Positions 4,100 to 9,722 of a DNA stretch of 64,000 nt are shown here, in pieces (the first letter of the stretch is position 1; every line of letters begins with the position of its first letter). Source of the stretch: Diplonema papillatum (lineage: Eukaryota; Euglenozoa; Diplonemea; Diplonemida; Diplonemidae); contig JAPJBO010000408.1 in NCBI GenBank assembly GCA_030068145.1, positions 62,001 through 126,000 on the forward strand. Reading direction: 5' to 3'. Made by a program: the position numbers and the translations under genes. Under the pieces are notes generated by a model. It was not told where the DNA came from, did not search any database, and saw only the letters and a list, made by a program, of their open reading frames with translations.

Positions 4100-7000
4100 T
4101 CAAGTGAGCAAAAACGGCATCGAGTCCAGCTGTCGTGCAGTTGCCCGTTCGGCGGGGTTGCGGGAGAGGCAGCTTTTCACGAATTCCTGCGATTTTGCAC
4201 GTTTTCGACTTTGCACTACAATTCCGACCTCTGGATATGGGTGAACGGCGATCCCGTGTTCGCTATCCGAGTCTCCACGCCTTGCCGTCTTGAAACACGG
4301 ACCAAGGAGTCTAACACGTGTGCGAGGCTGTTGACAGCAATGATAGCAACCGACACGTGCCCCATGACGGGAATTTAAGGCTGTTGACAGCAATGATAGC
4401 AACCGACACGTGCCCCATGACGGGAGTTTAAGGCTGTTGACAGCAATGATAGCAACCGACACGCGTCCCATGACGGGAGTTTAAGGCTGTTGACAGCAAT
4501 GATAGCAACCGACACGTGCCCCATGACGGGAGTTTAAGGCTGTTGACAGCAATGATAGCAACCGACACGCGTCCCATGACGGGAGTTTAAGGCTGTTGAC
4601 AGCAATGATAGCAACCGACACGTGCCCCATGACGGGAGTTTAAGGCTGTTGACAGCAATGATAGCAACCGACACGTGCCCCATGACGAGAGTTTAACACC
4701 GCCATGGGCGGTGTCGCATGATGGGGCAAAGACGCATTGTCTTCGTCCCACAGCAGCCGGGCGGCTCGCCGGATATAGTACGACTGGGATGGTATCCCAA
4801 TCTACGTTCGGTAGATCCATTTGTTCTAGGGTAGGCACAGCCGGCATATTTTTGTTTGTGCGTACGTGTGTAAACCCTGTTTTGAGTGATTTCACACAGC
4901 ACGCTGCCATCCGACACTTTTTGATACAGACAAGCAAGCTTGTTACCGACACACTTCGTGCCGCGTAGCAGAAGGTTGTATGTGTGTGGCGCTCGTTGCC
5001 AGGCCGGATGACCCCTGTTCTTCAGTTTTGGAGGAACAAAAAAAGCTTGGAATGCATACAAGAGCATCTTCGGGGAGATCCGGTATTCTCGGAACCATCG
5101 TTTCATCCGTCTTCAGCTTGTACATGAAGGCTTGGCCAATAAACTCACCTTCGGTGGGCAAGTCGTAGGGCACCTGTTGCGCGCCGTTTGGGCGTTGGTC
5201 GTGTTGGAGTTCTCTCCAACCAGAAAAGAAATAAACAGCGTGAACAGCAAAAGTGAGGAAGGGAGACGTGCTGGTGCCACGCAAAGTGCACGCGCAAAAA
5301 ACGTGTCGCCCATCCTTTTCCCCTTCGACGACGGTGAGCGTGGGGTCCAAGATGAATACCGTCGTAGTCCATTGCTGTAAACGGTAAACGATGCCGGCTC
5401 AGGATCGAAGGAAGCCGTTTTGGCTCTCACGGCGCTCCCTGAACCAGAAAAAAAAATCAGGGGAGAAAGAGCTTAACCAAACGCATACCGATCCGGAGAA
5501 GAGCTGACAGACGAGGATGCCGAGGGACCAGATATCTGAAGCCTTGTCGATGACGGCGTTGCAGGCTTCGGGAGACATGTACAAAGGAGTGCCAGAGACG
5601 CGTTCACCGCGGTTTCCGTGTACGGTGGGGGAGGTGGCGGTTACTTCGGAGAGAAGGGTCGCAGTCCCGAAGTCAGCGAGCTTGCAATCGCCGTCGTTGG
5701 TCATCAGCACGTTGTGCGGTTTGAGGTCCCGATGCACGATCCCGTTCTCGTGCAAAAAGGTCAGCCCGGTGACAATGTCACGGGTATACCGCCGAATGGA
5801 AGAGATCGGAAGCTCGTTGAACTCCTTCACGACGTCCGCGAGCGACCCTCCTGATAAGTACTCCATCACTATCATCACCGTGCGCCCCGCCACGCAACTA
5901 CCGAGGTACCCGACGACGTTGTCGTGGCGCATGTTCTCAAGCATGGCGACCTCCTGCAGCAGCTCCTTGACGCTGTTCTTCGGCGAGTACCGGCTCGGCG
6001 CCCTGCGCGACCGCCGGCGCTGCGAGTTCATGCTGCCCTTCGTCTGCAGCGACGGCGCCACGGGCGAGGCCGGGCTGCGCTCTTCGTCGGGCCGAGCGGG
6101 GATCTTCATGACCTTCATCGCCACCAGCCCGCCGTTCGAGCTCATCCCCAGCCACACGTCTCCGAACGCGCCCTTGCCCAGCCTCTTCTCGGAGCGCACC
6201 CAGTTTCTCTGGCTCGTGTCCGTGAAGTTGGTGGGCAGCACGCTGTCCTGCACCGTCGGAGAGAGCAGCTGATCGTCGTCCTGTTTTGTTGCGTGGCGTT
6301 GCTTTTTTCGAACCCGGCTCTGCTTCCCGGAGGAACGAGAACTGCTGAGAACCGCACGAGTCAGGTAGGCAAACAGAACTTGCTCAGGGTCGGTGCAAGT
6401 CGAAAAAACGGCCGGAGAAGGCCCCACCAAAGATCCAGGACCGCAGAGCTTCTGGCGAGAAAGAGCTTCGTTGAACGCTCACGCCTGCCACTGAACCCAG
6501 ATTTACCTGTGTTTCGTGGGCGACAGCACGTAGGCATCTCCTTTTTAGATTTCGCAACTGGCAGTCTCCTCAAGTATCTCTGCAGACATCTCCTTTTTGG
6601 ATTTCGCAACTGGCAGTCCTCAAGTATCTCTACAAAGCAGGTGCTCTTACAACAAAATAAAGCGGGGAGCGGAAGGCCGTACCGGGGAGTGCAAAGACAT
6701 CTCTCGGTGCGCGTCGAGGAGCTGCTTTTTGAGCTTGCCCGTGGAGGAGTCGGCGGCCGTGGTCGGGCGCCTGCCGACGGTGCTGGCGGAGCCGCTCTTG
6801 ACGCTCCGGCTGGACCGGAACGAGTACTTGCGGCCGAGGGTGTTCGACTGCGTCGACGAGCACGACGACGACGACGGCCGCCGGGGCCCGATGCCCTCAG
6901 TCTCGCTCGCCTCGGAGCTGTCGTCCTTCTGGCTCTTCGACTCCGGCGTCCCGGACGGAATCTGCGAGATGACCTCCTCGCCGAGGTCCGCCTTGCTCTC

Positions 7001-9722: not shown

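Follow-up and report, generated by a model that had tools for sequence, protein, structure and literature searches.

Apparent fusion of a cyclase-type membrane module, a degenerate cyclase domain and a STE11-type kinase in Diplonema papillatum

The locus and its host genome

The stretch of DNA analysed, hereafter the window, comprises 64,000 nucleotides of the Diplonema papillatum assembly GCA_030068145.1 (contig JAPJBO010000408.1, positions 62,001 to 126,000, forward strand), and all coordinates refer to positions within it. On the minus strand, a coding sequence extends from 9692 to 4100, with a TGA stop codon at 4100, and encodes a protein of 1095 amino acids. It is assembled from five exons (9692-9523, 8807-6683, 6280-5489, 5173-5060 and 4186-4100), which join in phase; the introns between them measure 715, 402, 315 and 873 nt and have GT..AG borders and compatible phases throughout. 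The gene is confirmed as real, and the five-exon model proposed in a preliminary description of this DNA is borne out. In a Pfam search with the whole protein, kinase families were the only matches above the cut-off.

Homology supports the exon junctions to different degrees. The joins between exons 3 and 4 and exons 4 and 5 are collinear and gapless with the single open frame of a paralogue, C1377. The first junction lies inside the membrane module and is spanned by a profile alignment, and a MAFFT alignment places a run of eight residues found only in the window protein at exactly this point. The junction between exons 2 and 3 (6683/6280) falls in an unconserved linker without homology support of its own, and is based only on phase, splice signals and the single-frame paralogues. 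Upstream of the start codon, a polypyrimidine-CAG stretch at 9723..9744 (minus strand), read from the sequence, is a plausible spliced-leader acceptor; position 9722, the upper limit given in the preliminary description, is the first base after it, 30 nt upstream of the ATG. If this acceptor is used, the mRNA would plausibly start at 9722 with a 5'UTR of 30 nt. Intron 1 (8808..9522, minus strand) contains a perfect GT/CA microsatellite of 250 bp (8817-9066), and intron 4 (4187..5059, minus strand) contains seven copies of a 53 bp tandem repeat (4325-4696). Elsewhere in the window, a single-frame isocitrate lyase gene is present on the minus strand (35167-37059; Pfam ICL, 681 bits), and a eukaryotic SSU rRNA fragment of 107 bases lies about 1 kb upstream of the kinase gene (10719-10825, minus strand; model positions 867-974, 65 bits), which is the sole Rfam match in the window at gathering thresholds.

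The genome searched was an assembly of 271 Mb in 2910 contigs, and the searches score the best candidates only, so that all counts given here are lower bounds. The 3' part of the Diplonema spliced leader occurs in 645 genome copies at one mismatch or fewer, whereas the reversed control gave none. The 39-mer that PMC3795323 lists as 'Euglenozoa 14' is present without change in one of the copies. The published D. papillatum genome measures about 280 Mb according to the portion of PMC10161547 available, and the assembly size, GT-AG introns and spliced leader all agree with that account. The host thus carries a spliced leader and is a free-living trypanosomatid relative; the preliminary description had pointed out the interest that a relative of a parasite signalling protein would have in a free-living protist. 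D. papillatum is moreover described as genetically tractable in an excerpt of PMC8611851.

The membrane module

Residues 1-265 (8183..9692, minus strand, covering exon 1, intron 1 and the first part of exon 2) comprise a polytopic membrane module and a connecting helix. A hydropathy scan of the membrane part gave five peaks separated by short loops, in agreement with the several membrane helices previously noted; the sequence as read suggests a possible sixth span at about residues 100-116, a guess with no counterpart among the scan peaks. An HMM built from 10 cyclase membrane blocks of the same genome matches residues 23-265 with 71.9 bits (E 2.9e-21), compared with 7.7 bits for the best of 1000 shuffled sequences of preserved local composition. 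On this profile evidence, the window protein belongs to a diplonemid family of membrane modules made up of a polytopic block and a connecting helix, and residues 23-265 are the same module that heads dozens of Pfam-type cyclases in the genome, a relationship absent from the preliminary description. The alignment contains a W-L-L-x-S-x-E-D-x-F-R-F-G-L-Y stretch and a Cys pair, and its connecting helix ends in YLPQ.

A genome query with one cyclase membrane block returned at least 142 matches, in which intron-split pieces of single genes are counted separately. A Pfam cyclase match (PF00211) lies within 3.5 kb downstream of at least 67 of these, and this figure is a lower bound, since at C580 two of the other 75 are followed by a cyclase match at 3.6 and 5.3 kb. 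When 24 kinase positions were used, just one of the 142, the window gene itself, was found to have a family kinase downstream at a distance of up to 6 kb. Many of the membrane cyclase genes stand in a row on contig C21, where some copies have identical match scores, a sign of recent expansion. The possibility that the cyclase module is common to all polytopic members of the kinase family was considered and was unsupported by the HMM test, in which the polytopic paralogues C97, C1377, C174 and C462 gave no significant match to the module. The window gene is consequently the single clear case, and the combination was seen once.

The module is followed by a low-complexity linker (residues 266-399; 7781..8182, minus strand), delimited by comparison with the layouts of the TM-C1-C2 and TM-DC frames of the genome, where DC denotes the degenerate cyclase domain. 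It has no Pfam match and occupies the position at which the TM-C1-C2 cyclases have their C1 domain. The same-genome membrane cyclases (for example L038, L042 and L046) share the module and connecting helix with the window protein, and have a degenerate second domain related to its DC. They differ in two respects: they possess a C1 domain with both metal-binding Asp residues where the window protein has the linker, and no family kinase was found within 6 kb of them, whereas the window gene has one.

The degenerate cyclase domain

The DC occupies residues 400-575 (7253..7780, minus strand), as defined by a paralogue profile against the PDB and by hhalign. As a single sequence it is refractory to recognition: it has no Pfam match, and its only phmmer match in the PDB is at chance level (E 1.1). 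A single-sequence AF2 model, made with no alignment, had a pLDDT of 41 and a pTM of 0.27 and was set aside. A profile of 15 of the 19 loci described below (leaving out C103b, C462, C1377 and C125) was more informative. All 28 PDB matches at E<=1e-3 were cyclases, and the 50 matches at E<=10 comprised 45 cyclases and five helicases, the latter at E 0.99-1.7. The top match was the soluble adenylyl cyclase ADCY10, at 9e-13 summed over two domains (4e-4 and 6e-5 apart), and 2w01, Cya2 of Synechocystis, was matched at 1.8e-10 over one domain. These two best PDB matches are cyclases that, unlike the window protein, are not known to carry a kinase. In addition, hhalign of the DC against ten Pfam-type cyclase domains of the genome gave a moderate probability of 84.7 (E 6.7e-6), with the first strand uncovered; one of these ten, L003, lacks both metal Asp residues as judged by eye. 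The Pfam cyclase family itself matches only two of the 15 DC family members, with a best E of 0.0046. The cyclase-like fold claimed earlier is therefore supported by the profile of 15 paralogues, not by the single sequence.

The catalytic residues of class III cyclases include two metal-binding Asp residues and an active-site motif formed by the transition-state Asn and Arg. In the window protein, Glu410 (7748..7750, minus strand) stands at the first metal position, an assignment based on its place in the first strand when the paralogues are aligned; the profile alignments do not extend to it. His451 (7625..7627, minus strand) replaces the second metal Asp; it is aligned to the GD motif of the genome's cyclases, and the profile position aligned to the GD of Cya2 is likewise H in the window protein. 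The Asn and Arg are replaced by Pro520 and Gly524, respectively, in alignments to Cya2 and to the genome's cyclases read by eye. The earlier observation that the metal-binding Asp residues are lost thus holds, and by profile and alignment residues 400-575 form a class III cyclase domain lacking both metal Asp residues as well as the residues expected at the Asn and Arg positions.

Similarity searches also relate this domain to two other degenerate domains: one is the second domain of some of the genome's cyclases, and the other occurs in membrane proteins that lack a Pfam cyclase. With the DC HMM, three of ten TM-cyclase frames gave a match at their second domain (1.1e-8 to 2.2e-6) and all four TM-DC frames read were matched (4.1e-16 to 2.1e-6), the best of 700 shuffled controls having an E of 0.92. 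These four frames (L060, L061, L062 and L063), read from among the 75 module matches without a Pfam cyclase within 3.5 kb, are open over 637-668 amino acids and contain the module and a degenerate cyclase domain with no kinase in frame. At their second metal site, GD is found in three and AD in the fourth. The 75 matches suggest that perhaps dozens of TM-DC frames exist.

C-terminal to the DC, residues 585-661 (6995..7225, minus strand) form a repeat-like conserved tail with a YYRE..WDDFE motif, as judged by eye from the paralogue alignment. The tail is seen in 15 of the 18 other paralogue rows, the exceptions being C1715, C691 and C47, in which the frame stops earlier; it matched no Pfam family above the cut-off.

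The kinase domain

The protein kinase domain spans residues 791-1093 (4109..6205, minus strand, in exons 3-5 with introns 3 and 4) and matches Pfam Pkinase with 186.3 bits. The VAIK Lys (K821), the HRD motif (948-950, D950) and the DFG motif (968-970, D968) are all present, confirming the complete C-terminal kinase with all catalytic motifs that had been described. Between beta3 and helix C there is a basic insert, with RRRSRR at 853-858.

Assignment of the kinase to the STE11 (MAP3K) class depends on the family profile. When a seven-member profile was compared with the PDB, ASK1/MAP3K5 (1.7e-52) was among the best full-length matches, ahead of PAK1 (7.7e-49) and STK24 (1.2e-48), although the GCN2 chain 8t7t ranked above ASK1 (4.4e-55). 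The window kinase alone does not separate STE11 from STE20, with MST4 at 2.7e-32, MAP3K2 at 5.4e-32 and the top row, 9p9u, at 5.9e-33. By family profile, then, residues 791-1093 are a kinase of STE11/ASK1 type with complete motifs, and the STE11 assignment made earlier is sustained on that basis. When bacterial and archaeal genomes were scanned with the kinase alignment, the best 80 rows were all prokaryotic records, as judged by title. In a tree of 26 rows, 14 family kinases group together, apart from ten others (support 93/96, just short of a star). Four of 30 loci were left out of this tree for short coverage (C141, C691, C33 and C97), and it does not include the kinases of C1715, C125, C47 and C462.

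A family of pseudocyclase-kinase loci

At least 19 loci in the genome encode a DC, the window gene included (E<=8.3e-6 over the DC part, with two pieces of C1377 merged). In 14 of the 18 others, the DC and the kinase lie in one open frame, and in four of these 14 (C33, C97, C141 and C462) the stretch read holds only the first part of the kinase. In a position count with a limit of 22 kb, a family kinase lies downstream of 18 of the 19 loci, one of them, C125, being just beyond this limit. As judged from frames and positions, the two domains are thus associated at 19 loci whose N-termini differ. For five kinases close to the family, C494, C632, C538, C36 and C1259, the position count gave no DC. 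On reading, a DC was found in C1259, and C632 has a weak DC match about 10 kb upstream (E 1.5e-4). C538 and C36, for which there was no DC match, are placed among the ten other kinases by the tree, and C494, where no DC was found within the stretch read, falls in the family clade.

Degeneration of the cyclase domain is graded within the family. Mean column identity of the DC is 36 percent over 15 rows; the first metal Asp is present in three of these, the second in six and both in two, and the domain may therefore not be dead throughout. The earlier term 'dead' cyclase is thus appropriate for the window protein and not for the family as a whole. Both Asp residues are kept in L029 (C691) and C103a in the census, and in C103b by eye (C103 comprising L018 and L020), and these C691 and C103 members may, from their residues, still be catalytic. 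Kinase motifs are altered in L023 (C40; HAD/NFY) and L068 (C1259; HNA/GFG), so that likely pseudokinases exist beside the pseudocyclases. With respect to their N-termini, C33, C37, C40 and C270 show a hydropathy layout of TM, long segment and TM, to which C37 and C270 add further peaks. These four appear to resemble the trypanosome kinase RDK1 more closely than the window gene does. Pfam found nothing above its cut-off in the N-terminal parts of C37 and C33, and the RDK1-like layout of these paralogues rests on hydropathy.

Proposed mechanism and alternatives

The interpretation favoured here, at a probability of roughly 0.55, is that the window gene encodes a polytopic diplonemid receptor kinase in which a pseudocyclase dimer is worked by the receptor and switches a MAP3K-like kinase. 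The membrane module would sense a signal, and the connecting helix would hand it to the pseudocyclase, which is assumed, by analogy with its superfamily, to dimerise as class III domains do while making no cyclic nucleotide. The geometry of the dimer would then bring two kinase domains together, leading to their trans-activation and to a MAP3K-like cascade. Each of these steps, namely sensing, helix transfer, pseudocyclase dimerisation and kinase trans-activation, is inferred. A receptor reading of the module is plausible in the light of an engineered protein, described in PMC4821796, in which replacement of a six-span cyclase anchor by a quorum-sensing receptor produced a ligand-regulated cyclase.

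The scheme would be a mirror image of the receptor guanylyl cyclases, which include the natriuretic peptide receptors and in which a dead kinase controls a live cyclase. As proposed for the window protein, these are single-chain membrane receptors in which a dead signalling domain regulates a live one; the order and roles are reversed, since there a pseudokinase regulates a cyclase.

The active sites of class III cyclases form between two domains, which raises the alternative that the pseudocyclase is a heterodimer partner of active cyclases with the same module, so that the kinase would be switched by, or would compete with, cAMP-making receptors. The common module would set both proteins in the membrane in the same arrangement, and the TM-DC proteins, of which four were read, would be further partners. 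This alternative is nevertheless rather unlikely, given the placement of the window DC in a tree (made without C125 and C1377) in which the C1 domains stand apart (100/100): it falls outside both the TM-DC group (98/99) and the C2 group (100/100), with no fixed position among the kinase-family domains. Taken with the module match, this placement makes the window protein look like a kinase-family pseudocyclase to which a membrane module of the cyclase type has been attached.

It is less probable still that the degenerate domain binds a nucleotide or other small ligand and acts as an intracellular sensor for the kinase. Such a role would be consistent with the retention of the domain through the family, at the mean identity given above, and of one or both metal Asp residues in some members, but in the window protein itself neither metal Asp is kept, and the alignments place Pro520 and Gly524 where Asn and Arg would stand.

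A further alternative is that the window protein represents RDK1 in diplonemids, as an orthologue that controls the choice of life stage through the same pathway. According to published descriptions, RDK1 (Tb927.11.14070 of Trypanosoma brucei) and its orthologues in kinetoplastids are membrane-bound proteins in which a cyclase-like region precedes a STE11-like kinase, as in the window protein. HHpred gave RDK1 the order sensor-like domain, TM, cyclase-like region and kinase (PMC8519429, in the passages available), and three TMHMM helices, one of them doubtful, are given in a portion of PMC3894213. The same layout has been reported in Bodo saltans (PMC8519429, PMC3894213, as excerpted), and the C-terminal order of pseudocyclase and STE11 kinase in the window protein agrees with it. 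According to part of PMC8519429, three T. brucei kinases share TM helices, a cyclase-like domain and a C-terminal kinase with the window protein, and these are the only three in T. brucei with a cyclase-like domain by sequence similarity, as against 19 loci here. The N-termini differ: as far as the available descriptions go, RDK1 has a bacterial-type sensor-like domain before the TM and two or three TM helices, whereas the window protein has short loops and a cyclase membrane module in place of a sensor-like domain between TM helices. The earlier statement that the parts are arranged in the same order as in RDK1 consequently applies to the pseudocyclase and the STE11 kinase that follows it, and fails for the N-terminus, a polytopic cyclase-type block. 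With nineteen such loci in the genome, four of them nearer the RDK1 layout by hydropathy, orthology together with a conserved function is very doubtful.

It is extremely improbable that the model is mis-joined, with the kinase gene separate from a membrane/pseudocyclase gene, or represents a decaying copy: the lack of independent homology at the 6683/6280 join and the repeats in introns 1 and 4 might be taken in that sense, but the exons are open and in phase, the kinase motifs are intact, and two separate genes at 6683/6280 were rejected on the single-frame paralogues, given that in 14 of the 18 other loci a single frame carries the DC together with all or the beginning of the kinase.

For diplonemids, searches of the open-licence literature yielded no description of such an architecture, and the word 'cyclase' does not occur in the text searched from PMC10161547 and PMC7052976.

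Implications

The apparent presence of the module on both cyclases and a kinase suggests that a single membrane sensor serves two kinds of output. A wider interpretation, put forward tentatively as a possibility, is that the polytopic anchor of class III cyclases is a free-standing receptor cassette that in diplonemids drives a live cyclase, a bare pseudocyclase or a MAP3K-type kinase, and that the pseudocyclases pair, so that one stimulus would be split into cAMP and kinase outputs. A receptor role for adenylate cyclase anchors has been proposed from an engineered swap (PMC4821796). If the cassette interpretation were true, the window gene would be a natural domain swap supporting that proposal. 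In this genome such an anchor appears to be attached to a kinase in addition to cyclases, and dozens of cyclase relatives are present in one cell for comparison. In addition, the family extends the RDK1-like cytosolic layout beyond the kinetoplastids to free-living marine organisms, where the receptor family has many members, and the parasite signalling protein may therefore have its origin in environmental sensing.
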